From: a virus
Length of the DNA: 21,597 nucleotides
Strand: one strand, 5' to 3'
Virus record (IMG/VR): IMGVR_UViG_3300018042_000051
Coordinates: 1-21,597 of that record
This document shows positions 946 through 20,682 of this stretch, one piece after another. The notes beneath the pieces were generated by a model. That model was not told the origin of the DNA, did not search any database, and saw only the letters and a program-made list of their open reading frames with translations. A program made the position numbers and the translations under genes. Each line of letters starts with the position of its first letter. The stretch's first letter is position 1.

Positions 946-1956
946 GTGGCACCTTTGACTGGCCAGGCCGAAAACGACCTCCCCGACAGCGTTTTTGCCC
1001 ACATCGAGGCCGGCGGATCGAAGGACGCGAGCGGAAAGACCGTTCCGCGGTCCAAGCGGCATTTCCCGATTCATGACGCGGCGCATGTCCGCAACGCGCT
1101 GGCTCGCGCACCGCAGTCGCCGTTCGGCAAGCCGGCCATGCCGAAGATTCTGGCTGCCGCGCGCAAATACGGCGTCAAGGTCTCCGGCGCGGAGCGGGCT
1201 ATGTTCGGCGAGGTCACGCTCGATGGTTTCCCCGAGCGGCGGTTCACCCGGTTCCCGCCGGAGATCCGCTCGGCGCCCAACGGCAGTACCGCGAAGCACA
1301 TCTTCGGGTACGCCGCGTGCTTCGGCAAGCTGTCCCGGCGGCTCGGCGGTTTCGTGGAGCAGGTCGGGGAGACCAGCTTCAACGAGAGCCGCACCGAGGG
1401 CTGGTCGAACGTGGTGTGCCGGTACAACCACCGCGATGACGGCCTGCTGGGCACCACCTACGCCCGCACGCTACAGCTGGCGATCGATGAGACCGGGCTG
1501 TCGTATGAGGTAGAGCCGCCCAACGCCCGCTCTGACGTGCTCGAATACGTGCAGCGCGGCGACATCCGGCACTCCAGCTTCGCGTTCCGGGTGCTGCCCG
1601 GCGGCGACGAGTGGGGCGTGTCCGAGTTCAACTACCCGATGCGCACCCTGCATTCGGTGGAACTGGTCGACGTCGCGCCCGTGCTTGATCCCGCCTACCC
1701 GGACGCCACCGCGGGGGCGCGTGCGATCGACGGCGCGGTCGTGTCGCTGGCCGGCTGGGTGCAGGGCGATGTGGAAGAGGTCCGCTGCCGGCTGGACGAG
1801 GGCCGCGCGATGGAGTTCTTCAAGGTCACCAGCCGCGATGGCGGGCGGCCGAAGCCGCAGACCAAGCCGGCCCCGCCGAAGCCCGTCATGACCGGCGCCA
1901 ACGCGCTGCTGGACCTCATGAACAACCAGGACGATCCCTACAAAGACGAGGGCTGA
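946..1956 (+). CDS. HK97-type prohead protease with N-terminal DUF6582-like domain
   Basis: A 336-residue serine protease expected to cleave the capsid precursor and scaffold domain during head maturation. Residues about 85-270 match the HK97 prohead protease family (peptidase U35): the catalytic His is in YNHRDDGLLGT (H162) and the catalytic Ser in RGDIRHSSFAF (S210 or S211), with the usual strand pattern ending HSVELVDVAPVLDPAYP. Residues about 10-80 (LPDSVFAHIE, RHFPIHDAAHVRNALAR) form a separate domain that I recall as DUF6582, seen in many actinophage proteins; the fusion makes this protein longer than the roughly 200-residue stand-alone proteases. The C-terminal 50 residues are Pro/Lys-rich and probably flexible. 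The GTG start has GGGAG about 8 bases upstream. The capsid gene follows after a 101-base leader. Confidence 0.9.
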   Translation: MAPLTGQAENDLPDSVFAHIEAGGSKDASGKTVPRSKRHFPIHDAAHVRNALARAPQSPFGKPAMPKILAAARKYGVKVSGAERAMFGEVTLDGFPERRFTRFPPEIRSAPNGSTAKHIFGYAACFGKLSRRLGGFVEQVGETSFNESRTEGWSNVVCRYNHRDDGLLGTTYARTLQLAIDETGLSYEVEPPNARSDVLEYVQRGDIRHSSFAFRVLPGGDEWGVSEFNYPMRTLHSVELVDVAPVLDPAYPDATAGARAIDGAVVSLAGWVQGDVEEVRCRLDEGRAMEFFKVTSRDGGRPKPQTKPAPPKPVMTGANALLDLMNNQDDPYKDEG

Positions 1957-2057: not shown

Positions 2058-3335
2058 ATGGCATCAGAAGTCGCGAAGCGACTGCGGGACCGGCGTATGA
2101 ACGTGTGGAATGACGCCAAGAAAATCGCTGAGGACGCGGCCAACGAGAACCGCGCCTTCACGCCGGAGGAGCAGGGCAAGTGGGACGCCTACAACGAGGA
2201 GATGACCACCCTCGACACCCGGATCAAGGCGGTCCTGGACACCGAGGGCCGGGCCAAGCAGGCGGATGACGCCTACGACGCCCTGTCCGGCCGCAAGAAG
2301 GAAGGCCCCGAGGGCACCCCGGCCCAGCGCGACACGCTGGCAGAGGTGCGCAAGTGGGCCCGCGGTGACGAGGGGGCGTCCCGGGCGCTGGAGATCCGGC
2401 ACGGCGCTCCCGGGCCGATCAACTACCGCATCCTGACCACCGCCGGCGCGAGCAGCAGCACTAATGCCAGCTCCGTTATCCCGACCGACTTTTACGATAT
2501 GCTAATTTCGCACCTAATCGAAGTATCCGGGATTATGCAATGTGGTCCCACGGTGCTTAATACAGGGGGCGGAGAGACGCTCCAGGTGCCTAAGACCACC
2601 GCGCACTCCTCTCCGGGTAACCCGCCATCACCGTCCCTTACCGCAGCGCAGAACGCAACGCTGCCGACGAGCGATCCTGCCTTTTCCATGATCTCGCTGA
2701 GCGCCTATAAATATGGCGTTCTTTTGCAGGTCGCGAGAGAATTGATAGACGATACGGCCGTGGATCTCCTTGGGTACTTGGCTATGCAAGCTGGCCGGGC
2801 GCTCGGCAACAACTTCGGAAACGCCCTGGTCAACGGCACGGGCTCTGGTGGGCCCAACGGCCTGATCAACCTGGCTACCCTCGGCGTTACTGGTGCCACG
2901 ACTGGCGTTTCCGGTGCGCCGTCTTATGCCAATCTCGTGGACATGGAATACTCCGTGATAGCGCCCTATCGCCAAAGCCGTTCGTGCTATTGGCTGGCTG
3001 CCGATAAAACAATTGGCGGCTTTAGGAAAATCACGGACACCGTGGGGCGCCCGATCTGGGAGCCGAGCGCAGTTCTGGGATCTCCGGACCTTCTTCTCGG
3101 CAAGCCGCTGGTCGCGGACCCGTTCATGCCGGCAATGGCGACTTCGGCGAAGGCGATTTGCTTCGGCGACTTCAGCCAGTTCTTCGTGCGCCTGGTCGGC
3201 GGGGTCCGGTTCGAGCGGTCCGACGACTTCGCGTTCGGCAGCGACCTGGTGACGTTCCGCGCGATCCTGCGTGGTGACGGCACCCTGGTCGACCAGACCG
3301 GAGCCATCAAGTACTACGCTGGGGCATCGACGTAA
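2058..3335 (+). CDS. HK97-family major capsid protein
   Basis: A 425-residue capsid protein of the HK97 fold, forming the icosahedral head. Residues 1 to about 115 are charged and helical (RRMNVWNDAKKIAEDAANEN, TPEEQGKWDAYNEEMTTLD), the typical delta/scaffold domain that the upstream protease would remove. The mature part starts around residue 120 and shows the family pattern: VIPTDFYDMLI, LLQVARELIDDTAVDLLGYL, a Gly-rich E-loop/P-domain region with NGTGSGGPNGLI, and a C-terminal FGDFSQFFVRLVGGVRFERS followed by LVTFRAILRGDGTLVD. Length is normal for the family. The ATG has GAAGGGA about 8 bases upstream. Codon use changes inside the gene: bases about 2455-3175 use AT-ending and rare codons (CTA, ATA, TTG, AGA), unlike both ends. 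Confidence 0.95.
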   Translation: MASEVAKRLRDRRMNVWNDAKKIAEDAANENRAFTPEEQGKWDAYNEEMTTLDTRIKAVLDTEGRAKQADDAYDALSGRKKEGPEGTPAQRDTLAEVRKWARGDEGASRALEIRHGAPGPINYRILTTAGASSSTNASSVIPTDFYDMLISHLIEVSGIMQCGPTVLNTGGGETLQVPKTTAHSSPGNPPSPSLTAAQNATLPTSDPAFSMISLSAYKYGVLLQVARELIDDTAVDLLGYLAMQAGRALGNNFGNALVNGTGSGGPNGLINLATLGVTGATTGVSGAPSYANLVDMEYSVIAPYRQSRSCYWLAADKTIGGFRKITDTVGRPIWEPSAVLGSPDLLLGKPLVADPFMPAMATSAKAICFGDFSQFFVRLVGGVRFERSDDFAFGSDLVTFRAILRGDGTLVDQTGAIKYYAGAST

Positions 3336-6054: not shown

Positions 6055-7023
6055 ATGCGCTATCTAGTGACCGGCGGTGCCGGGTTCATCGGTTCTAATC
6101 TGGTGGATGCCCTGGCCAACGCCGGGCACGAGGTCCGGGTGCTGGACAACATGTCCCGGGGGCGGGCTGACCGGCTCGACGGCCTGGGCGCCACGCTCAT
6201 CACCGGGGATATCCGCGACCCGGATGCGGTGACCGATGCCATGCAGGGCTGTGACCGGGTGATCCACGCCGCCTACGTGCAGGGCACTCAGACGTTCTAC
6301 GCCGAGCCCCGGGAAGTGCTCGACGTGGCCGTGCGCGGCATGCTCGCGGTGCTGGCGGCGTGCGAGGCCACCGGCTGCGGCCAGCTGATGCTGATCTCCT
6401 CCTCCGAGGCGTACCAGGTCGCCCCGGTGACGCCCACCCCGGAGAACGTCCCGCTGGTGGTCCCGGACGTGCTCAACCCGCGCTACAGCTACGGCGGCGG
6501 GAAGATCACGTGCGAGCTGATGGCGCTGGCCTGGCAGCGTACCGGCGTGCTGGACCGGGTGATCATCGCCCGGCCGCACAACATCTACGGGCCGGACATG
6601 GGCCGTGAGCACGTCATCCCCGAGTTCTGCCTGCGGATGAACCGGCTGGTGGCCGAGTACCCGGACCCTTCAGGCGTTGTGACGTTCGGCATTCAGGGAA
6701 CCGGTCAGGAGACCCGCTCGTTCTGCTGGGTCGATGACTGCGTGGATCAGCTGATGCTGCTGTGGGACAGGGCAGAGGAGCCGGTCAGCGTCTGCCACGT
6801 CGGAACGATGGACGAGCACACGATCGCGGACGTCGCCGGGGCGGTGGCGGCCTGCTACGGGCGGCAGATAAAGGTGGTCCCGGGCACGCTGCCGAAAGGC
6901 TCCCCGCCGCGGCGGCTGCCGGACACGGGCAAGATCCGCGCCATGGGCTGGGACCGCAGCAAGGAACGGCGGTTTGAGGCCGGCCTGGCGGATACCGTCG
7001 CCTGGTATCGCTCGCATGGCTGA
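6055..7023 (+). CDS. NAD-dependent nucleotide-sugar epimerase/dehydratase (extended SDR)
   Basis: A 322-residue extended short-chain dehydrogenase/reductase acting on a nucleotide-activated sugar in the cytoplasm. The N-terminal NAD-binding motif is GGAGFIGS (7-14); the acidic residue binding the adenine ribose is D31 after strand 2; the catalytic Ser lies in LISSSEAY (115-117) and the Tyr/Lys pair in YGGGK (Y146, K150). ARPHNIYGP and the C-terminal DTGKIRAMGW fit the UDP-glucose 4-epimerase/sugar 4-reductase group. The exact reaction (4-epimerase, dehydratase or 4-ketoreductase) cannot be read from sequence. It opens the glycan operon and overlaps the C-methyltransferase gene by 8 bases (ATGGCTGA). 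The start is set by the family's conserved N-terminus; the ribosome binding site is weak. Confidence 0.88.
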   Translation: MRYLVTGGAGFIGSNLVDALANAGHEVRVLDNMSRGRADRLDGLGATLITGDIRDPDAVTDAMQGCDRVIHAAYVQGTQTFYAEPREVLDVAVRGMLAVLAACEATGCGQLMLISSSEAYQVAPVTPTPENVPLVVPDVLNPRYSYGGGKITCELMALAWQRTGVLDRVIIARPHNIYGPDMGREHVIPEFCLRMNRLVAEYPDPSGVVTFGIQGTGQETRSFCWVDDCVDQLMLLWDRAEEPVSVCHVGTMDEHTIADVAGAVAACYGRQIKVVPGTLPKGSPPRRLPDTGKIRAMGWDRSKERRFEAGLADTVAWYRSHG

Positions 7024-8158
7024 CGTTGAGGTCACCCAGGTCCGCTACTGCGGCATCTGCCGCGGCGAGCAGCTGAAGCTGATCCTGGACCTGGGGGAGC
7101 AGCCGCTGGCCGAGCGGGAGACCGGCGGCGTGTACCCGCTGGCGCTGATGGAGTGCACCACCTGCGGCCTGGTGCAGCTGAGTCATATTGTGGACCCGGC
7201 GCAGATGTTCCCTTGCGACCACCCGTATGCCACCGGCAACACCCGGTTTCTGCGGGAGCACTTTGCGAAGCTGGCTGTCATCCTCACCCCGCGGGTCAGT
7301 TCCGGTGATCTGATCGTAGACATCGGCGCCAATGACGGCACGTTCCTGGACGCTTTCCGGCACGTCAACCGCGATGCCCGTCTGCTGGCTATTGAGCCGA
7401 CCGGGCAGGCCGCGGCGTGCCGGGCCAAGGTCATTCCGGTCGAGCAGGAGTTTTTCACCGCGGCCCTGGCCCGCAAGATCGCCCGCTACATCGGCGAGGC
7501 CAAGGTGATCGTGGCTACCAACGTGCTCGCGCACGTCCCGGACCCGCATGACTTCCTGTCCGGCGTCAGCTCGCTGCTGGCCGATGACGGAGTGTTCGTC
7601 ACCGAGAACCATGACTGGGCGTCGGTGGTCAACGGGCTCCAGGTCGACACCATCTACCACGAGCACTTGCGTTACTACTCGATCAGCTCGCTGGGTTACC
7701 TGCTGGCCATGCACGGGTTCCTGATCAGCGGCGCCGAGCCGATTGCCGCCCACGGCGGCAGCTTCCGGATCAGCGCCGTGCGCCAGCACCGGGCGTTCGG
7801 CGCCCGCGCGGGCCGGGCGCGCGACGAGCTGCGCGAGCTGATGGAGGCCAGCGCCGCGTCCGGGCCGGTGTACGGGATCGGCGCGTCCACCCGCGCGACG
7901 CCGCTTATCCATTACACGGGCATCGCGCCGCACCTGTCCAAGGTGTGTGAGGTGGCTTCCAGTGCCAAGATCGGCACGTGCATCCCGGGCACGTCCATCC
8001 CCATCGTGGATGAGAAGGCGCTGATTGAGGATCAGCCGCCGCACGCGCTGCTGCTGTCCTGGCACCTGAAGGACCACCTGGTGCCTAAGCTGCGCGCGGA
8101 CGGATATGAGGGCCGCTTCATCGTCCCGCTGCCCAAGCCGAAGGTGATTTATGGCTGA
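7016..8158 (+). CDS. deoxysugar C-methyltransferase (TcaB9/NovU-like)
   Basis: A 380-residue SAM-dependent C-methyltransferase of the family that adds a branch methyl group to 4-keto-deoxysugars linked to dTDP. Three parts are visible: an N-terminal zinc site (C12, C15, C47, C50 in YCGIC and ECTTC), a Rossmann SAM-binding domain with VDIGANDGTF (101-110), and a C-terminal domain with KPKVI near the end. The active-site signature YHEHLRYYS (214-222) is as expected for TcaB9-type enzymes, in which Tyr, His and Glu act in catalysis. The ATG at 7016 lies inside the previous gene's end, and its own end overlaps the cupin gene, so all three are likely co-translated. The part after residue 260 seems shorter than in antibiotic-pathway homologues of about 410 residues. 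Confidence 0.9.
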   Translation: MADVEVTQVRYCGICRGEQLKLILDLGEQPLAERETGGVYPLALMECTTCGLVQLSHIVDPAQMFPCDHPYATGNTRFLREHFAKLAVILTPRVSSGDLIVDIGANDGTFLDAFRHVNRDARLLAIEPTGQAAACRAKVIPVEQEFFTAALARKIARYIGEAKVIVATNVLAHVPDPHDFLSGVSSLLADDGVFVTENHDWASVVNGLQVDTIYHEHLRYYSISSLGYLLAMHGFLISGAEPIAAHGGSFRISAVRQHRAFGARAGRARDELRELMEASAASGPVYGIGASTRATPLIHYTGIAPHLSKVCEVASSAKIGTCIPGTSIPIVDEKALIEDQPPHALLLSWHLKDHLVPKLRADGYEGRFIVPLPKPKVIYG

Positions 8159-8507
8159 CAGATTTGAGGATCATCGCGGCGTCATCCAGGACCTGATCAC
8201 CCGGCGGGTCGATTCGGTCACTGAGATATTCACCAGGGCCGGGGCTGTCCGGGGTAACCACCGGCACGATTTCACTACGCAGTGGGTGTACGTGGTATAC
8301 GGGAAAATGCTGTTCGTCACTCTGGAGGACGATGGCCGGCATGAGCGCACCGAGGGCAACTCCGGCAAGCTGATCACCGAGCACGCCGGGATACCGCACG
8401 CCTGGCGCGCGATTGAGGACACGCTGGTGCTGGTGTTCACCCGCGGGCCGCGAGCCGGGGAGAACTACGAAGCGGACACCCAGCGGCTGGCGGTGCCGCT
8501 GCTGTGA
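8151..8507 (+). CDS. cupin-fold sugar isomerase/epimerase-like protein
   Basis: A 118-residue single-domain cupin. The core motif GNHRHDFTTQWVYVVYGK (about 35-52) gives the metal- or substrate-binding histidines, and a second half motif follows in ITEHAGIPHAWRAIEDTLVL. Small cupins of this pattern include dTDP-4-keto-sugar 3,4-isomerases (FdtA/WxcM type) and sugar 3,5-epimerases, which fits the neighbouring deoxysugar genes. The first codons overlap the C-methyltransferase end by 8 bases through ATGGCTGA, the same junction used one gene earlier. The substrate and the choice between isomerase and epimerase are inferred from context. Confidence 0.75.
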   Translation: MADRFEDHRGVIQDLITRRVDSVTEIFTRAGAVRGNHRHDFTTQWVYVVYGKMLFVTLEDDGRHERTEGNSGKLITEHAGIPHAWRAIEDTLVLVFTRGPRAGENYEADTQRLAVPLL

Positions 8508-8532
8508 ACTTCAATACCCGGAAGGGGTCACA

Positions 8533-8886
8533 ATGAGCTGGACAATCCCGGCTGCGAGCCTGAATTCTGCTAGCGTCCCGTCAGACGGCTCAGCAATTGA
8601 TCTGGGAAATGTGCGATCGTCTCACGGTATCGAGGTCGTGCTTGATCTGACGACGGCTAATGACACGCCGCAAGTCTGGCTGGAAGGCTCACTTGATGGC
8701 GTCAATTGGTACAGCATGAACACGCCCGCCGGTATGCCCATTTATCAGGTGCCGTCTAGCCAGCCGGCAGGGACTTACATCGTGCTGGTTATGGTTGCTA
8801 ACCAGCCTGCGCAGTACGTGCGGGCTACCAGCGACGGCCCGTCAGGCTGCGCCACCGTGACGACGCTGCATACAGCGACCGCCTGA
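8533..8886 (+). CDS. beta-rich hypothetical protein, possible virion protein
   Basis: A 117-residue protein with alternating strands and the pattern VWLEGSLDGVNWYSM, which recalls phage virion or decoration proteins built as small beta sandwiches (VTLEGSLDG...W). The N-terminus (SWTIPAASLNSASVPSDG) and Thr/Ser-rich C-terminus (CATVTTLHTATA) are consistent with an exposed structural protein. I cannot name a family. The ATG at 8533 has GAAGGGG 5 bases upstream; the frame is open further upstream into the cupin gene but without a ribosome binding site. Codon use is more AT-rich than in the sugar genes before it. Its place inside the glycan operon suggests that it is modified by, or works with, those enzymes. 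Confidence 0.55.
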   Translation: MSWTIPAASLNSASVPSDGSAIDLGNVRSSHGIEVVLDLTTANDTPQVWLEGSLDGVNWYSMNTPAGMPIYQVPSSQPAGTYIVLVMVANQPAQYVRATSDGPSGCATVTTLHTATA

Positions 8887-8892
8887 ATCGCC

Positions 8893-9432
8893 ATGACCCA
8901 GTTCAATACCGACAAGGACGTCCCGCACGGTTATCTGCCGGACTACCGGATGCTGGCTGCCCAGCTCGGCCCGGCGGCCACTGTGTGTGAGGTGGGGGTG
9001 CTGCAAGGCGGCTCACTGGACATGTGGCAGGAGCTATTCCCGGACGGCAGGGTAATCGGCGTCGACAACGACCCGGCCAGCCGGTGGCCGGACGGTACTC
9101 ACCGGATTGTCGCGAACCAGGACCATCCGCAGCTTGGGCGGCTAGTTGCCGCTGAGGCACCACAAGGCTGTGACCTTATCGTGGATGACGCCAGCCATAT
9201 TGGGCACCTGACCGCGGCGACATTCGCGCTGCTGTGGCCGCTGATCCGGCCGGGCGGCTTCTACGTGGTAGAGGACTGGGCCGATCCGTGGGTGTCGCCT
9301 GAAGTAGGCGTAGCCGATCCGGGTGACCGCCTGGTGGACTACGTGCCCGCACTGATTTCCGCGCTGCGCGAGGGAGCTGACCGGGTGACGTACACCTACG
9401 AGGGCCTGGTCATTATCCGGCGGCGGCCATGA
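8893..9432 (+). CDS. class I SAM methyltransferase, MycE/macrocin O-methyltransferase-like
   Basis: A 179-residue methyltransferase. Motif I is CEVGVLQGGSLDMW (32-45), with GVDND (56-60) as the acidic SAM-ribose position and DLIVDDASHIGH (94-105) followed by IRPGGFYVVEDW (118-129). The order EVGVxxGGSLxMW, then VDDxSH, then PGGxYVxEDW, is that of sugar O-methyltransferases such as MycE, where the DD/H residues bind metal and base. It lacks the N-terminal domain of MycE. The start is preceded by no clear ribosome binding site, 6 bases after the previous stop, so coupling is likely. The end overlaps the next gene by ATGA. A role in methylating a transferred sugar is inferred. Confidence 0.8.
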   Translation: MTQFNTDKDVPHGYLPDYRMLAAQLGPAATVCEVGVLQGGSLDMWQELFPDGRVIGVDNDPASRWPDGTHRIVANQDHPQLGRLVAAEAPQGCDLIVDDASHIGHLTAATFALLWPLIRPGGFYVVEDWADPWVSPEVGVADPGDRLVDYVPALISALREGADRVTYTYEGLVIIRRRP

Positions 9433-10037
9433 TTTCGGTGCTGTTGCCGTCCCGGGGACGGGCAGAGCTGCTGGCGCGCTCTGCCGGTTCGCTGAAGGAC
9501 ACCGCGGTCCAGGCACCGGAAATACTGGTCGCCGCCGACGATGACGATCCGGCGACCGTCCGCGCTGCCCGGCAGCTAGGCGCCCGTGTACAGGTGTGCC
9601 AGCGTGCGGGTTATGCGGGGCTGCACCTGTACTATCAGCAGCTTGCGGCTCTCGCAACGGGTGACTGGCTGCTGATCTGGAATGACGACGCGACCATGAT
9701 GACGGCCGGCTGGGATGTCCTGATCGAGACGGTGCCGGCAGGCGTCCTGGTCGCGGACGTGCCGTCCACTCAGTCCCCGTTGTGCTGTTTCCCGGCAATT
9801 CGCCGGGAGGCCGTTACGGCGCTCGGCCGGTTCAGCAGCGCTAATCCGCACGTCGACACGTTCTGGCAGGACGTCGGCCGCGCCACCGGGACGATATTTA
9901 CAGTGACGGGGTGTTTTGCCCGCCACGATGCCCCGGTGAAGCCAGATCAGGCGTACGGCTTCTACGAGCCGGGACACCAGGCGGAACTGACAGCCTGCGC
10001 AGACATTATCCGCGCCGCGTTTGCCCCGGTGGGCTGA
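9429..10037 (+). CDS. GT-A (family 2-like) glycosyltransferase
   Basis: A 202-residue single-domain glycosyltransferase. The N-terminus ISVLLPSRGRAELLARSAGS is the classic GT2 nucleotide-binding start, followed by ILVAADDDDP (32-41) and the DxD-type metal site IWNDDATMM (83-91). The C-terminal half (FWQDVG, YGFYEPGHQAE) would hold the acceptor site. It has no membrane anchor, so it acts in the cytoplasm. It starts within the previous stop (ATGA) and ends 2 bases before the next gene, which is also a GT-A enzyme. Donor and acceptor are unknown. Confidence 0.8.
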   Translation: MISVLLPSRGRAELLARSAGSLKDTAVQAPEILVAADDDDPATVRAARQLGARVQVCQRAGYAGLHLYYQQLAALATGDWLLIWNDDATMMTAGWDVLIETVPAGVLVADVPSTQSPLCCFPAIRREAVTALGRFSSANPHVDTFWQDVGRATGTIFTVTGCFARHDAPVKPDQAYGFYEPGHQAELTACADIIRAAFAPVG

Positions 10038-10039
10038 TC

Positions 10040-10666
10040 ATGCCACCGCGCTGGCAGATCCTGATTCCGACCATCCCGCACCGGCACGCCAAATTGTCTG
10101 GCCTGCTGCGCCAGCTGGATGCGCAGATGCAGCTGGGCGTACAGGTGGTGGTTTACCGGGACAACCTGGAGACGAGTTACGCGGGCAAGCTGCAAGCGCT
10201 GATGGACGCGGCGACGGGAGTGTACGTTTCCGTGCTATCTGATGATGACGGCGTGTGCCCGGATTTTCTGCCGCGGGTGTATGCGGCGATGGACAGCGGC
10301 CCGGATCAGGTGGGCTTCCGGGTCCGGTACACCGAAGCGGGGGTACGCCAGCAGCCCGTCATTCACTCGCTGACGTGCGGCGGCTGGTCTGACGACGCTG
10401 CGGAATTGCGGCGCGACATTATGTACTTCAATCCGGTTCGCCGGGAGCTAGCGCAGCGAGCCCGGTTCCGCGGGCCATACTGCGATGCTGAATGGGCAGA
10501 AGACCTGCGGGCGCTCGGCTGTATCCAGACAGAGGTATTCATCGACGCGGAAATGCTGTACTACCAGCGCGATGCCGCGGATAATTTCCACACTCCCCGT
10601 CAGCCGGCAGCCGCCGGGCAGATTTTGCCGCTGCCGCGTTATTGCTGGCTGGCTGAACTGCGATGA
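10040..10666 (+). CDS. GT-A type glycosyltransferase
   Basis: A 208-residue protein with the GT-A pattern: QILIPTIPHRHAKLSGLLRQ at the N-terminus, a Lys/Ala helix (AGKLQALMDAATG) leading into the metal site VSVLSDDDGVCPDFL (63-77), and a later acidic EWAEDLRALG stretch that fits the acceptor or catalytic-base region. The ATG at 10040 was chosen because the fold begins right there; the frame is open upstream but carries no GT features. A weak GGTGGG precedes it. The last four bases overlap the next gene (ATGA). It is shorter than most GT2 enzymes. Confidence 0.75.
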   Translation: MPPRWQILIPTIPHRHAKLSGLLRQLDAQMQLGVQVVVYRDNLETSYAGKLQALMDAATGVYVSVLSDDDGVCPDFLPRVYAAMDSGPDQVGFRVRYTEAGVRQQPVIHSLTCGGWSDDAAELRRDIMYFNPVRRELAQRARFRGPYCDAEWAEDLRALGCIQTEVFIDAEMLYYQRDAADNFHTPRQPAAAGQILPLPRYCWLAELR

Positions 10667-11352
10667 CCAGAATCCGGCAGTTCTATCATCTAGGCGCCGA
10701 CACTTTGTGGAAACCCGCGGCCCGGCAGCATATTGCCGCTTGCCACGAGGCGGCTTTGCCCGGCGCAGTCACCGTAGGGGTCACCGGAACACCCGGGCGA
10801 TCCGCACTGGCCCGGGACTGGCTAGCTGAGCAGTGGCCGCTGGCTCGCGTAAAGCTGCTTGATGGTGAGTTCGAGCAGCCGACGTTGCGGCTGGCCCGGG
10901 ATTGGGCGCTAGTGAACCCGGATGGAATGGTGCTGTACGCGCACGCCAAGGGCTCGGCAAATTTGTCCCCGGTACAGGAGGCGTGGCGGGAGTCGATGAC
11001 GATCGACGTGATCACCCGATGGCGGGAGTGCATCGCTCAGCTGTCCGCGGGGTATGACGTCGCGGGCGCGCACTGGCTGGACCCTGTGGTCTATCCGAAC
11101 ATGCTGATTGCCACCCAGGCGAACGGCGGCAGCCAGACCCCATTTTTCGGCGGGAACTTCTGGTGGGCAACCGCGGCGTATCTGATCAGCTTGCCCGTGC
11201 CCAGCGCGCTGACTCGCTGGGGCGCTGAGCGCTGGATCGGGCTCGGTCACCCGAAAGCCGCCGACATGCGGCCCGGCTGGCCCACCATCATGCTGTTCGC
11301 GGGCCCGGCTGCGGAACGAATGCTCCAGCGGGACTTCTGGTGGAGCGGATGA
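10663..11352 (+). CDS. glycan-cluster protein with HxKG and GNFWWA motifs, putative glycosyltransferase
   Basis: A 229-residue protein with two motifs that recur in an otherwise poorly characterised glycosyltransferase-like group: YAHAKGSANLS (H94, K96, G97) in the middle and FFGGNFWWATAAYLISLP (161-178) later. I recall these in bacterial and viral glycan clusters (YxHTKG and GNFWWA patterns). No metal-binding DxD is obvious in the usual place. The start overlaps the previous gene by ATGA, which makes a shared function likely. Assignment to glycan synthesis rests on the motifs plus context; the catalytic role is not established from sequence. Confidence 0.65.
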   Translation: MTRIRQFYHLGADTLWKPAARQHIAACHEAALPGAVTVGVTGTPGRSALARDWLAEQWPLARVKLLDGEFEQPTLRLARDWALVNPDGMVLYAHAKGSANLSPVQEAWRESMTIDVITRWRECIAQLSAGYDVAGAHWLDPVVYPNMLIATQANGGSQTPFFGGNFWWATAAYLISLPVPSALTRWGAERWIGLGHPKAADMRPGWPTIMLFAGPAAERMLQRDFWWSG

Positions 11353-11371
11353 CTAGCTGAGGAGAAAAATC

Positions 11372-11410
11372 GTGTTTCTGATCGGCACGGTCAGTCCCGG
11401 CTCGCCATGA
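11372..11410 (+). CDS. 12-codon leader ORF coupled to the next glycosyltransferase
   Basis: A GTG at 11372 with a strong GAGGAG site 7 bases upstream opens a 12-codon frame (VFLIGTVSPGSP) that stops at TGA 11408-11410, overlapping the ATG of the next gene (ATGA at 11407). The downstream gene lacks a good ribosome binding site of its own. The simplest reading is a leader peptide that delivers ribosomes to the next start. It may have no function as a peptide. Confidence 0.45.
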   Translation: MFLIGTVSPGSP

Positions 11411-12069
11411 TGCTGCCCGGACCCACCCCAGATTCCGCCGCGGGCATTCCCGCGGACCGCCCGCCGGCCGTCTCGGTGATCACCCCCACCTGGGGGCGGC
11501 ACGAGATGCTGATGAGCCGCTGCATTCCTTCGGTGCTGGCCCAGGAGTTCAAAGGTACCGAGCACATCATCGTCAGCGACGGCCCGGACCCGCAGCTGGC
11601 CTACCGGCTGGGGCCGAACGGGCCGGACGGGCGCCGGAACCTGCTGTACTACGAGCTGGCCTCCCACAGCCCGGATAAGCACTATGGGCACCTGGCCCGG
11701 CTGGCCGGGATTGAGTACGCCAGCGCCGACCTGATCACTTACTGCGATGATGACGACGCGCTGCGCAAATCCCACGTCAGCGAGATGGCCCGCGCGCTGA
11801 ACAACAGCCCCGAAGCCGGGTTCGCGGTCTCCCGGATGATGAGCCACGGCCCGTCCGGCCCGGCCGTGGTCGGCTGGGGCGCGCTTGGCTGCGGGAACGT
11901 CGGCACGCCGATGCTGATGCACCACCGCTGGGTGCTGGAGCACGGTACCTGGGGGCCGGCCAGCCAGTACGAGGACTGGGAGCTGGTGGAGCGCTGGCTG
12001 CACGCGGGCATCCGGTACGTGAACGTGGACGCGGAGACTTCCGACGTGTGGCCATCCGTCTTCCGCTGA
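11407..12069 (+). CDS. family 2 glycosyltransferase
   Basis: A 220-residue cytoplasmic GT2 enzyme, the clearest of the set. After a Pro-rich N-terminal tail of 20 residues comes AVSVITPTWGRHEML, then HIIVSDGPDP (53-62), the metal-binding motif TYCDDDDALRKSH (111-123) and a C-terminal EDWELVERW (189-197), the usual ED-x-D/E catalytic-base position. Donor sugar unknown. It is the last gene of the glycan operon and starts at the stop of a 12-codon leader frame. An ATG three bases further in would give nearly the same protein. Confidence 0.9.
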   Translation: MMLPGPTPDSAAGIPADRPPAVSVITPTWGRHEMLMSRCIPSVLAQEFKGTEHIIVSDGPDPQLAYRLGPNGPDGRRNLLYYELASHSPDKHYGHLARLAGIEYASADLITYCDDDDALRKSHVSEMARALNNSPEAGFAVSRMMSHGPSGPAVVGWGALGCGNVGTPMLMHHRWVLEHGTWGPASQYEDWELVERWLHAGIRYVNVDAETSDVWPSVFR

Positions 12070-13792: not shown

Positions 13793-14449
13793 GTGGACGA
13801 CAACCGCCTGGTCGCGCTTGGCACGTACACCCCGGAGGGATACCTGACCCCCGGCTACGGGGACCACTACCTGTTCTTCGTGGGCCGCGACGACGTGCAC
13901 GGAATTCTGCTCTGGCTGCTGACCCGCGAGACCATGGGCCTGAAGTTCAACATGTTCGGCTACGACGACGATGAGCTGAACGACGCCATTCTGGCGCTGA
14001 TGGCCAGCCCGAACGTCGCGGTGCAGGGCACGCTGGACCGGTCCCAGGCCGGCGGCGTGCACGAGCGGGCCATCCTGGCCAGCGACCTGAAAGACAACCC
14101 GGATTTCTACAACAGCTTCGTGATCACCACCTCGGCCACCCACCAGATCAGCCACACCAAGGGCGGCGTGCTGATCGCGCAGGGGCTGTGGTTTGAGGGG
14201 TCCGCCAACTGGTCAGGCAGCGGTGAGGGCACCGGCATCAAGCTGGCGGCCGGCACCGGCCTGAACGCGGCGCGGGACACGCCCGCACCCGGCTTCAAGG
14301 CGCAAAATAATACGCTGCTGGTCTCCGCCAACCCGGTGGGGCTGACCCGGTTCGGCGCCCGGCTGGACGTCGAGCACCGGACCGGTATGCAGCAGCAGGC
14401 CGCCCGGGACGCGAAAGCCGCGGCGGCAAAGGTAACGGAGGGACAATAG
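13793..14449 (+). CDS. phospholipase D-superfamily protein, single motif (Nuc-like)
   Basis: A 218-residue protein of the PLD fold, a group that includes non-specific nucleases and phosphodiesterases. The N-lobe pattern LKFNMFGYDDDELNDAILAL and VAVQGTLDRSQAGG (about 50-88) matches the strand-helix-strand region of Nuc-type enzymes. The active-site motif is HTK (H121, K123) followed by GSANWS (136-141). The Asp expected after HxK-x4 is replaced by Ile or Ala, so activity may be altered. One motif per chain implies a dimer. No signal peptide is seen. The C-terminus is an Ala/Lys/Gln helix. The GTG start has GGAAGG 7 bases upstream. The tiny membrane protein gene follows after 4 bases. Defence, counter-defence or DNA processing are all possible. 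Confidence 0.8.
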   Translation: MDDNRLVALGTYTPEGYLTPGYGDHYLFFVGRDDVHGILLWLLTRETMGLKFNMFGYDDDELNDAILALMASPNVAVQGTLDRSQAGGVHERAILASDLKDNPDFYNSFVITTSATHQISHTKGGVLIAQGLWFEGSANWSGSGEGTGIKLAAGTGLNAARDTPAPGFKAQNNTLLVSANPVGLTRFGARLDVEHRTGMQQQAARDAKAAAAKVTEGQ

Positions 14450-14709: not shown

Positions 14710-14958
14710 ATGAGCGCTGAGCAAAACCAGGGAATCACCGCCCTCGCGGACTGGATGGCCGGCCGTGAGGTGGGCGACCGGCACAAGAGCCTGTTCTGGG
14801 CCGGCTGCCGGGCCGCTGAGCAGGGCCTGGAACCGGGCCCGCTGATCGCCGCCGCGGTGACGGCCGGGCTGGGGGAGAGCGAGTCCCAGCGGGCGGTCGC
14901 CGGCGCCGCGGCCACCATTGCGGCGGGCCGCAAAGACCACGGGAAGATCAGCTCGTGA
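14710..14958 (+). CDS. small helical protein resembling a prim-pol C-terminal segment
   Basis: An 82-residue, mostly helical protein. The stretch HKSLFWAGCRAAEQGLEPGP and LIAAAVTAGLGESESQRAVA resembles the short C-terminal helical segment of phage bifunctional primase/polymerases (NxxLFWAACRAAE...AAVxAGLxExEAxRTIxSA), where it follows the catalytic domain. Here it stands alone, without any catalytic residues. Function unknown; a DNA-binding or regulatory helper is possible. The ATG has no strong ribosome binding site, but a putative promoter lies upstream. It is the first of five genes joined by GTGA overlaps. Confidence 0.65.
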   Translation: MSAEQNQGITALADWMAGREVGDRHKSLFWAGCRAAEQGLEPGPLIAAAVTAGLGESESQRAVAGAAATIAAGRKDHGKISS

Positions 14959-15185
14959 GCGCGGCCAGGCACCCGGCCACGCAGCAGATCATGCAGTGGT
15001 TCAGCTACCGTCACCTGCCGGCGGGCGTGCCGCGCGAGGTCAGCGAGCGCTTCACGGTTTTTGCCGGGGAACTGCTCGGCCAGCTGGGCGACGGGCCGGA
15101 GCTGACGGCTGGCCTGCGCAAGCTGCTGGAGGCGAAAGACTGCCTGGTCCGGCAGGCTCTCGCGGACGGGAAAGACGCCCCGTGA
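14955..15185 (+). CDS. Acb2/Tad1-type hairpin protein, candidate cyclic-nucleotide sponge
   Basis: A 76-residue protein predicted as a two-helix hairpin: IMQWFSYRHLPAGVPREVSE, a helix ERFTVFAGELLGQLG, then ELTAGLRKLLEAKDCLVRQA. The second helix, with the pattern (E/L)T-x2-LRKLLEAKD-x2-VR-A, matches what I recall of small actinophage proteins assigned to the Acb2/Tad1 hairpin family. Characterised members form oligomers that bind cyclic di- and trinucleotides or gcADPR and so block CBASS or Thoeris immunity. The GTG start overlaps the preceding stop (GTGA) and the end overlaps the next start the same way. The family call is from memory of the pattern, without a search, and ligand preference cannot be read here. 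Confidence 0.65.
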   Translation: MSAARHPATQQIMQWFSYRHLPAGVPREVSERFTVFAGELLGQLGDGPELTAGLRKLLEAKDCLVRQALADGKDAP

Positions 15186-15475
15186 GCGCGCCGCGGGAAG
15201 CCCAGCTGGTGGACACCGGCAATTCGCTGCTGGCCAAGGTCGAGAGCACGCTGTCGATCGGGACCGTCGAGTCCCCGGACGGCCAGCTGGCCCTGCTGAC
15301 GTTCCGGACCGCGAGCACCACCTTCACCACGATGGCAAGCGCGGTGGAGCTGAAAGGCTGGCTCGACCTGCTGAACGGCCTGTGCGCCAGCATGAGCAAA
15401 AGCGGCCTGGTGGTGGCCCGGGGTGCCCTGCCGCCCGCGCAATTCCCTCAGCGCGGCCCTGGTGGCCGTACGTGA
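15182..15475 (+). CDS. small hypothetical phage protein
   Basis: A 97-residue protein of unknown function. Two to three beta strands are suggested by STLSIGTVES and GQLALLTFRTASTTFTTM, followed by a helix ELKGWLDLLNGLCASMSKSG and a flexible Pro/Gly-rich end. The strand pair followed by an amphipathic helix is reminiscent of short actinophage proteins that accompany the Acb2-like gene, but I cannot name a family. The GTG start lies in the preceding stop (GTGA), and its stop holds the next GTG, so it is translationally coupled on both sides. Confidence 0.65.
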   Translation: MSAPREAQLVDTGNSLLAKVESTLSIGTVESPDGQLALLTFRTASTTFTTMASAVELKGWLDLLNGLCASMSKSGLVVARGALPPAQFPQRGPGGRT

Positions 15476-18318: not shown

Positions 18319-19509
18319 TCAGGTCCCCTTCACGTTGACGAGCTGATGCAGCTCGTGCCGGATATCCACCAGGCCGCGCGAGTCCGCCATCACGACGCCG
18401 ATGTCCTTGTATGCGCCGGGGATCTCATCCAGGAACGTGCGGCCGGAGGCGGCATCCCACTCGATCCCCTTCATCGATTCCTGGAGGTCGGCCTCGGTGA
18501 AGTGCGCCTTGGCCGCGCTGCGGCTGAACTGGCGGCCGGCGCCGTGCGGGCTGGAGTGCAGCGCCCACTGGTTGCCCCGGCCGGTCACCACGTAGGACGC
18601 CGCGGCCATCGACCCGGGGATCAGCCCCGGCACGCCCTTGTGAGCGTCGATCGCGCCCTTGCGGGACAGCCACACCAGCTCATCGCCGTGGGTCTCCTGC
18701 TCGGTGTAGTTGTGGTGGCAGTTAACCTTCTCGGTGACGCGGAAATCGATGACGTGCCCGGCGCCCAGCCAGTCGCTGAAGCAGGCATTGACCCGCTCCA
18801 TCATCTCGTCCCGGTTCAGCCACGCGAACCGCTGCGCCCAGCGCAGGTCCCGGATGTAGGCGTTGAATTCCCGGGTGCCCTCGGTCAGGTACGCCAGATC
18901 CGGGTGCGGCAGCTTCGTCCCATTGGTCTTGCAGGCCAGCTGCGCGAGCTTGATGTGCCGGAACGCCAGCTTGTTGCCGACGCCACGGCTCCCCGAATGC
19001 AGGAACAGCCAGAGCCGGCCGTCCTCATCGGCGGTGATCTCGATGAAGTGGTTGCCGCCGCCCAGGCTGCCCAGCTGAAGCCGCCAGTTTGGCGCGACGG
19101 CCTCAGCGGCGCCGTAGCCGTCCAGGCCCTCCAGCTCGATGATCCGCGCCCGGGTGCCGAACCGGCTGTTCCACCAGCGCTGGTTGTAGTTGCCCGGCGA
19201 CAGCGGAATAGTGTGCTCGATCATCCGGCGCAGCGCGGCCAGGTCCATGCCCTCGATGGCGTCCCGGTGCACGTCAGTACGCCAGGCACACATTCCGCAG
19301 CCGATGTCCACCCCGACCGCGGCGGGCATGATCGCACCCAGCGTAGGGATAACCGAGCCTACTGTCGAGCCTTTGCCGAGGTGGGCATCCGGCATCAGCG
19401 CCAGGTACGGGTGAATGAACGGCATGGCCGACGTCATGATCGCCTGCTGGCGTGTCGGCTGGTCCAGGATCGACGCCCAGGACTTCAGCTTCGGGGTGAT
19501 CTCTTCCAT
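18319..19509 (-). CDS. rtcB: RNA-splicing ligase RtcB
   Basis: A 396-residue RtcB ligase, which joins RNA 2',3'-cyclic phosphate or 3'-phosphate ends to 5'-OH ends using GTP and Mn. All core motifs are present: PDAHLGKGSTVGSVIPT (40-56), VGVDIGCGM (65-73, metal D68 and C71), LGGGNHFIEI (149-158, H154), HSGSRGVGN (171-179), NCHHNY (263-268) and the guanylation site HSSPHGAGR with H322. Length is normal (E. coli about 408). The ATG has GAGGGAGG upstream. It heads a four-gene minus-strand operon and is divergent from the RmlB-like gene. In phages the likely role is to repair tRNAs cut by host anticodon nucleases or toxins, an inference. No RtcA or archease gene is nearby. Confidence 0.96.
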   Translation of the reverse strand: MEEITPKLKSWASILDQPTRQQAIMTSAMPFIHPYLALMPDAHLGKGSTVGSVIPTLGAIMPAAVGVDIGCGMCAWRTDVHRDAIEGMDLAALRRMIEHTIPLSPGNYNQRWWNSRFGTRARIIELEGLDGYGAAEAVAPNWRLQLGSLGGGNHFIEITADEDGRLWLFLHSGSRGVGNKLAFRHIKLAQLACKTNGTKLPHPDLAYLTEGTREFNAYIRDLRWAQRFAWLNRDEMMERVNACFSDWLGAGHVIDFRVTEKVNCHHNYTEQETHGDELVWLSRKGAIDAHKGVPGLIPGSMAAASYVVTGRGNQWALHSSPHGAGRQFSRSAAKAHFTEADLQESMKGIEWDAASGRTFLDEIPGAYKDIGVVMADSRGLVDIRHELHQLVNVKGT

Positions 19510-19677: not shown

Positions 19678-20682
19678 ATGGCGCGCATACTCATAACCGG
19701 CGCGGGCGGCTTTGTGGCGCATCACCTGCTGGAGCACGTGCTGGCCACCACCAGCTGGGATGTCGTGGCCACCGACAGCTTCCGGCACCGTGGCAAGACT
19801 GACCGGATCGCCCAGGTGCTGACCGGGCACCCGGACTGGCGTGCCCGCACCACCGTGTTCACCCATGACCTGTCCGCGCCGTTCAGCGACCAGGCCACCA
19901 TCTCGATCGGCGCGGTGGACTACATCATGGCGATGGCGTCCGAGTCCCACGTGGACCGGTCGATCTCCGATCCGGTGCCGTTCATCCGCAACAACACCGA
20001 CGTCATCTGCAACACCCTGGAGCTGGCCCGCGAGCTGGAGCCAGCCATGGTGATCGTGGTGTCCACCGATGAGGTGTACGGCCCGGTCCGCGGCGGCTAT
20101 GCCTGCCCGGAGTGGTCCACCATCCTGCCGTCCAACCCGTACGCCGCCTCCAAGGCCGCCCAGGAGGCCATCGCCATCTCCTACTGGCGGACCTACGGCG
20201 TGCCGGTGGTGCTGACCAACACGATGAACATCATCGGCGAGCGCCAGGACGCGGAGAAGTTCCTGCCGATGGTGATCCGGCAGGTGGCGGCGCGCGAGCC
20301 GGTGACCATTCACGGCACGCCGGAGCACATCGGCACCCGGCACTACCTGCATGCCCGCAACGCCGCTTCGGCGTGGACGTTCCTGCTGGACCGCGGCAAC
20401 CCGGCGATGTACCCGGATGCGGACAGGCCGGATCGCTGGAATGTGGCCGGGTCTGAGCAGGTATCCAATCTGGACCTGGCCCAGCGGGTCGCCACCATCA
20501 TGAGCCAGCCGCTGCTGTACGAGCTGGCCGACTTCCACTCCGCCCGGCCCGGTCACGACGCGCACTACGGCCTGGACCCGCGCAAGCTGGCCGCCGCCGG
20601 GTGGAAGCCGCCGGTCGACTTCAGTGAATCACTGGAGCGGACGGTGAACTGGTCGCTGGCCCATCCAGCCTGGCTGCACTGA
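19678..20682 (+). CDS. dTDP-glucose 4,6-dehydratase-like protein (RmlB type)
   Basis: A 334-residue extended SDR enzyme most like dTDP-glucose 4,6-dehydratase, which makes the 4-keto-6-deoxy sugar from which most deoxysugars derive. Visible are the NAD motif GAGGFVAHH (8-16; the third Gly is Ala), SESHVDRSISDP (88-99), the STDEVYG motif (129-135) with T130-D131-E132, and YAASK (Y155, K159). NTMNIIGERQDAEKF and GWKPPVDFSESLERTVNW also fit. The TDE triad is the hallmark of dehydratases as opposed to epimerases. The nucleotide carried by the substrate is not certain. The ATG has GGGGGAG upstream. It lies 7.6 kb from the other sugar genes but supplies what they lack, a 4-keto intermediate for the C-methyltransferase and cupin. 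Confidence 0.88.
   Translation: MARILITGAGGFVAHHLLEHVLATTSWDVVATDSFRHRGKTDRIAQVLTGHPDWRARTTVFTHDLSAPFSDQATISIGAVDYIMAMASESHVDRSISDPVPFIRNNTDVICNTLELARELEPAMVIVVSTDEVYGPVRGGYACPEWSTILPSNPYAASKAAQEAIAISYWRTYGVPVVLTNTMNIIGERQDAEKFLPMVIRQVAAREPVTIHGTPEHIGTRHYLHARNAASAWTFLLDRGNPAMYPDADRPDRWNVAGSEQVSNLDLAQRVATIMSQPLLYELADFHSARPGHDAHYGLDPRKLAAAGWKPPVDFSESLERTVNWSLAHPAWLH

Follow-up and report, generated by a model that had tools for sequence, protein, structure and literature searches.

The stretch of DNA analysed here, in the following called the window, is a virus record of 21.6 kb (21,597 nucleotides) in which a head maturation protease and the major head protein are encoded close to the left end. 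The open reading frame of interest codes for 76 amino acids. It starts with a GTG at position 14955 and stops with the TGA at positions 15183-15185 of the + strand. The reading frame, its immediate surroundings and the two head genes are arranged as follows.

946..1956, + strand: gene for the phage's own head maturation protease, as context (phrog_80, E 3.1e-27)
2058..3335, + strand: gene for the phage's own major head protein, as context (phrog_10, E 7.6e-57)
14710..14958, + strand: upstream gene for 82 amino acids, overlapping by four bases with the start of the 14955-15185 gene (open reading frame)
14941..14947, + strand: GGGAAGA, purine-rich and possibly a ribosome-binding site just 5′ of the GTG (read from the sequence)
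14955..15185, + strand: gene for the 76-amino acid protein of the phrog_5120 family with three predicted helices (open reading frame and PHROG matches)
15182..15475, + strand: downstream gene for 97 amino acids, overlapping by four bases with the stop of the 14955-15185 gene (open reading frame)

The 14955-15185 reading frame is a genuine coding gene. Its GC content at the three codon positions is 0.75/0.48/0.88, as in the neighbouring genes, and an identical gene is present on a second virus contig (L002) within a region of 98% identity. Because of the four-base overlaps on both sides, the three consecutive genes are probably translationally coupled. The upstream protein of 82 amino acids has no match in Pfam, PHROGs or NCBIfam.

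Some other reading frames of the window deserve mention. At 13793-14449 (+ strand) an open reading frame of 218 amino acids contains an H-x-K-like segment (HTKGGVLIAQGLWFEGSANWSGSGEGTG) and resembles a phospholipase-D-type nuclease; no match was found for it in Pfam, PHROGs or among the PDB sequences. Downstream of the head genes, at 6055-12069 and 19678-20682 (+ strand), inspection of the translations by eye revealed sugar-nucleotide epimerase-, methyltransferase- and glycosyltransferase-like reading frames, a run which suggests glycan or surface-modification functions. An RtcB-type RNA ligase is encoded at 18319-19509 on the − strand, that is, opposite to most phage genes, and matches the tRNA-splicing ligase RtcB in the PDB with E 1.8e-30.

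The 76-amino acid protein has no match in Pfam or NCBIfam. In the PHROGs collection it is matched by phrog_5120 with E 2.9e-27, residues 3-75 of the protein being aligned to positions 5-76 of the 79 positions of the profile and thus over the full length, and by phrog_1761 with E 5.3e-20. Judged by its sequence the protein is a member of phrog_5120. Both PHROGs carry the label "unknown function". With tblastn, relatives were found in 335 annotated-phage records, and among the best matches listed all are hypothetical proteins. One branch of the relatives was found in more than 580 viral contigs, which is a lower bound, and relatives are also present in bacterial genomes from many phyla. The hosts of the phages include Vibrio, Erwinia, Acinetobacter, Gordonia, Mycobacterium and Brevibacterium. 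Among 198 sampled genomes of one actinobacterial class the phrog_5120-type family was found in seven and the curated Pfam family PF24729 (Acb2_Tad1_hairpin) in one.

We counted the alignment columns in 172 non-redundant family sequences with at most 75% identity. R55, L57, K61, D62, V65 and R66 are 100% invariant, and L54, K56, L58 and E59 as well as H20 in the N-terminal part are conserved to 99%. In the N-terminal segment F16 is found in 98% and L21 in 100% of the sequences, and the position of Y18 is occupied by Y, F or W in 89%. These two segments and the helices of the AlphaFold2 model discussed below correspond to the following positions of the window.

14973..15002, + strand: helix 1, short and N-terminal, residues 7-16 (AlphaFold2)
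15000..15020, + strand: codons of F16-x-Y18-x-H20-L21-P22 (column counts and hhalign alignment)
15027..15083, + strand: helix 2, residues 25-43 (AlphaFold2)
15096..15164, + strand: helix 3, residues 48-70 (AlphaFold2)
15105..15152, + strand: codons of the signature T51-x2-LRKLLEAKD-x2-VR66 (column counts, 172 sequences)

The original prediction regarded the protein as a probable Acb2/Tad1-family sponge, based on a two-helix layout and the motif T-x2-LRKLLEAKD-x2-VR-A. The motif is indeed nearly invariant in the relatives, and its VR-A ending occurs in 80% of them; the exact string in the window protein reads T-x2-LRKLLEAKD-x2-VR-Q-A. As a mark of Acb2/Tad1 proteins, however, the motif does not hold. 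It is the signature of phrog_5120, and that of PF24729 reads P-x-SREKSLAxTKLEEAvMWANAxIAR.

The two-helix layout has to be corrected as well, as the AlphaFold2 monomer of the 76-amino acid protein (pLDDT 94.1) has three helices at residues 7-16, 25-43 and 48-70. Acb2 is described as consisting of a short helix and two long ones that run antiparallel (PMC10419184), and the window protein is predicted to have such an Acb2-like protomer. For a true PF24729 member AlphaFold2 gives helices at residues 2-10, 20-41 and 46-69. The helix order of the two predicted structures is thus the same and the lengths of their loops are nearly equal. In a fold search of BFVD a predicted structure from Providencia phage PS3, annotated as Acb2/Tad1 hairpin, appears at rank 8, behind the family's own members (prob 0.90, E 0.49). 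When the window model was used in a PDB fold search and with VIA-align, no Acb2 or Tad1 chain was listed, and all PDB fold matches were weak (E ≥1.6); short helical hairpins match many things. The PDB fold search is able to find Acb2 structures, since a true PF24729 member, used as positive control, retrieves T4 Vs.4 (7uq2) in first place with probability 1.00. Going by the models, the fold of the window protein is similar to Acb2 but not close. The PDB was also searched at the sequence level with the protein and two family profiles, and these searches returned nothing but helical design proteins and matches due to chance.

We then turn to the question whether the protein belongs to PF24729, whose cut-off is 27 bits. 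This profile does not match the window protein even at E values up to 10, nor does it match any of 72 close relatives. In a more diverse set of 90 relatives no Pfam family is matched more often than PF24729, with 11 proteins, the best of which reaches E 3.1e-4 and 21.3 bits and is therefore sub-threshold. None of the relatives tested exceeds the cut-off. As positive controls T4 Vs.4 and PaMx33 Acb2 score 71.4 and 66.1 bits with the same profile. A set of 40 phage records with relatives also yielded sub-threshold PF24729 matches (E 8e-5 to 6e-3), and the two best of these places were confirmed by their coordinates to lie inside the family gene. Eleven PF24729 places were listed in this set; one of them contains stop codons and was excluded as support. 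The helix-3 signature SREKSxAxTKLEEAxMWANAxIAR is not found in the 172 family sequences, as its T is replaced by R in 100% and WANA is absent. True Acb2 proteins are assigned to phrog_717, a PHROG other than phrog_5120. As the profile fails for the window protein and its relatives and true Acb2 proteins have their own PHROG, the 76-amino acid protein is not to be filed under PF24729. In this strict sense the proposed membership in the Acb2/Tad1 family was not borne out.

A distant relationship is nevertheless visible when profiles are compared with each other. The 172 relatives were aligned with 81 PF24729 proteins using hhalign; this is the comparison of a single pair and not a database search. 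PF24729 proteins had been collected with a consensus query, which scored 100.8 bits on Pfam and served only to fetch real sequences. The two families align with 85-90% probability (P 2-6e-6) over 35-50 collinear columns, which comprise the F-x-Y segment, helix 2 with its A, the P-xx-E-x-S/T turn and the K-L-x-E-A of helix 3. As a yardstick we compared the main branch of PF24729 with the T4 Vs.4 group, both of which belong to one accepted Pfam family, and obtained a probability of 84.5% with P 7e-6, the alignment covering 26 columns. As the scores of the two pairs are on the same level, the distance of phrog_5120 from the main branch appears to be roughly that of T4 Acb2. The link to PF24729 runs only through this main branch; when T4 Vs.4 or PaMx33 Acb2 was compared by itself, hhalign found no direct link between the profiles.

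One could argue that the resemblance to Acb2/Tad1 is a chance likeness of short helical hairpins, which are common, and that the function of phrog_5120 is an unrelated one. The weak matches that the window model gave in the PDB fold search would agree with such a convergence, and the hhalign probability stays below the usual 95%. The match is, however, collinear over all the elements named above, and its score of 32.6 was attained by none of 400 column permutations (maximum 17.1) and by none of 90 decoy windows, which had been cut from real protein families of the neighbourhood and scored 15.7 at most. Moreover, the probability climbed as the alignments were broadened. A first comparison with narrower alignments gave 39%, and broadening both alignments raised the value to 84-86% and finally to 85-90%. 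One column permutation of the narrower alignments got to 26, and none did after broadening. We regard convergence as improbable. That phrog_5120 is a distant sister family of PF24729, with a kinship at the profile level, is in our view well supported by these sequence comparisons. Of the Acb2/Tad1 identity proposed at the outset, the distant kinship and the similar predicted protomer thus stand, and the recognised membership does not.

The alignment via the main PF24729 branch also allows the residues of the binding site to be compared. In T4 Acb2 the mutation Y8A leads to a binding-deficient protein and T68M reduces the affinity (PMC12657230). Y18 of the window protein aligns with the tyrosine of the FxYH motif in PF24729 proteins and hence with Y8 of T4 Acb2. 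On this alignment the Y8-equivalent aromatic residue is retained in 89% of the 172 family sequences. The position of T68 is taken by the invariant R55, and helix 3 of phrog_5120 ends in KDxxVRAAL where PF24729 proteins have WANAxIAR. Since the PF24729 residues of helix 3 are exchanged for an invariant set of Arg, Lys and Asp, any ligand of phrog_5120 probably differs from the usual Acb2 ligands or is held in a different binding mode.

A sponge function is plausible for the protein. From sequence and predicted structure we consider the sequestration of a nucleotide immune signal to be the most likely function, and would give it an even chance of being correct. The kinship, the predicted protomer and the retained aromatic residue speak for it. 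Against it count the sub-threshold PF24729 scores of all relatives tested, the absence of solved Acb2 structures from the PDB matches of the window model, the altered helix 3 with its invariant Arg at the T68 position, the lack of a direct profile link to T4 Vs.4 or PaMx33 Acb2, and the fusion of one relative to a polyprotein of head protease and capsid, described below. The Acb2/Tad1 hairpin family is marked by homo-hexamers with pockets between the protomers and by the binding of CBASS or Thoeris nucleotides, which protects the phage. In phrog_5120 sequestration could proceed in the following steps. The protomers would assemble into an oligomer as in Acb2. Pockets would then form where the F-x-Y-x-HLP segment of a given protomer faces helix 3 contributed by others, and these pockets could hold a small nucleotide signal from an abortive-infection system of the host. 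With the signal sequestered, the host effector would finally not be activated.

The almost frozen signature of helix 3 can also be read in another way. R55, K61, D62 and R66 are invariant in all 172 sequences and the PF24729 residues of helix 3 are missing, as might be expected if the protein were related to Acb2/Tad1 without being a sponge and used its charged helix-3 face to bind either a nucleic acid or a protein of the host, for instance in host takeover or as inhibitor of a defence protein. The location of the gene in early or replication regions of some phages would suit such a role. However, six positions which are invariant over phages and prophages of many phyla would argue against a fast-evolving host protein as partner and would fit a chemically fixed ligand better. 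We hold this explanation to be possible but rather unlikely, and sequestration of a nucleotide signal is kept as the preferred reading.

The genomic context was also considered. The genes that directly flank the relatives include those for terminase, portal, head morphogenesis, endolysin and holin as well as early genes. The family gene is placed between minor tail genes in Gordonia phage Gustav and behind the holin in Brevibacterium phage AGM2. Other annotated phages have it close to the gene of the major head protein, or else in early or replication regions. True PF24729 genes are similarly scattered and in Microbacterium phage Quhwah, for example, such a gene is located between the portal and the major head protein. 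Thus, the genome context does not separate the hypotheses. The scattered positions fit an accessory gene and the role of a sponge but are no proof.

In a prophage of Rhodococcoides fascians (L218:8004-9878) the hairpin domain shares one open frame of 630 amino acids with a head maturation protease of the HK97 type and with a region that resembles a capsid protein. The protease part matches phrog_80 with E 1.5e-23; the capsid resemblance is a judgement by eye, and the protease may have a start of its own inside the frame. Two Rhodococcus loci (L209 and L035) show the same beginning of a fusion up to the end of the contig. Nothing else speaks as strongly for a role connected with the head, or for a protein delivered with the virion, as this fusion in the prophage. 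It would agree with a small protein that serves virion assembly or is packaged, for example a scaffold-like or an ejected domain, and so would the many copies which adjoin terminase, portal, head or lysis genes. The position of the gene varies, however, as seen in Gustav, in AGM2 and in the early regions of other phages, and true PF24729 genes adjoin head genes too, as in Quhwah. In the window the gene is about 12 kb away from the head maturation protease of its own phage. A function in the head module appears improbable to us and is given about the same weight as convergence.

The sponge reading can be extended to include the fusions. In this more far-reaching form phrog_5120 would be a new and very widespread sponge family whose pocket is built on the invariant Arg/Lys/Asp signature of helix 3 and binds a nucleotide signal unlike the ligands of Acb2 and Tad1; in some phages the sponge would be fused to the capsid polyprotein and could enter the host together with the DNA. 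We put this forward tentatively, as a possibility and not as a probable scenario.

In Curtobacterium phage Yotsuba, gene 61 (L445:2950-3447) is PF24729-like and annotated as 'cyclic nucleotide sequestering protein'. It adjoins a gene annotated as nicotinate ribosyltransferase, and the two could possibly form an anti-defence pair against NAD-based immunity.

The phrog_5120 family is large, occurs in phages of many bacterial groups and is without assigned function. Phage sponges are reportedly the subject of recent studies by Hadary (2025) and Tal (2026), to which PMC13232231 refers. If phrog_5120 is a sponge family as well, a common counter-defence would have been overlooked by current profiles, and its ligand could reveal a host signal so far unrecognised in actinobacteria and beyond.

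How does the window protein compare with known systems? The closest ones are phrog_5120 and phrog_1761 themselves. The LRKLLEAKDxxVR signature is common to both and to the window protein, no difference is apparent and no function is recorded for either. T4 Acb2 (Vs.4) and the Acb2 proteins of PaMx33 and PaP2 are sponges for cyclic di- and trinucleotides. Acb2 gives off its ligand in intact form when heated, and the Panoptes defence operon responds when its decoy cyclic nucleotide is sequestered by a phage sponge (PMC12657218, PMC12657230). The window protein is like T4, PaMx33 and PaP2 Acb2 in the predicted succession of a short N-terminal and two long antiparallel helices and, by way of the main PF24729 branch, in the Y8-type aromatic residue, but there is no direct sequence or profile match and they were not listed in the PDB fold search of the window model.

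Tad1 is a sponge for gcADPR, and its C-terminal hairpin is placed in the same Pfam family as Acb2. In addition Tad1 bears an N-terminal beta-sheet domain (PMC12043709), which is absent from the window protein with its 76 amino acids, all helical in the model. Gene 25 of Gordonia phage Sting (L446:4719-5225) codes for a relative in which some 95 additional residues precede the hairpin; by eye this N-terminal part looks like a small domain rich in beta structure (SH3-like). This order of a beta domain followed by the hairpin recalls Tad1; the likeness is one of order only.

The stand-alone proteins of the main PF24729 branch (FTYHPP...SREKSLALTKLEEAVMWANAAIARNE) share with the window family the helix order and nearly the same loop lengths in the AlphaFold2 models, a similar size and the scattered genome positions. 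The differences are found in helix 3 and in the turn. Where TKLEEA has its T, phrog_5120 invariably has R, MWANAxIAR is replaced by KDxxVRAAL and the S/R/E turn by GPE.
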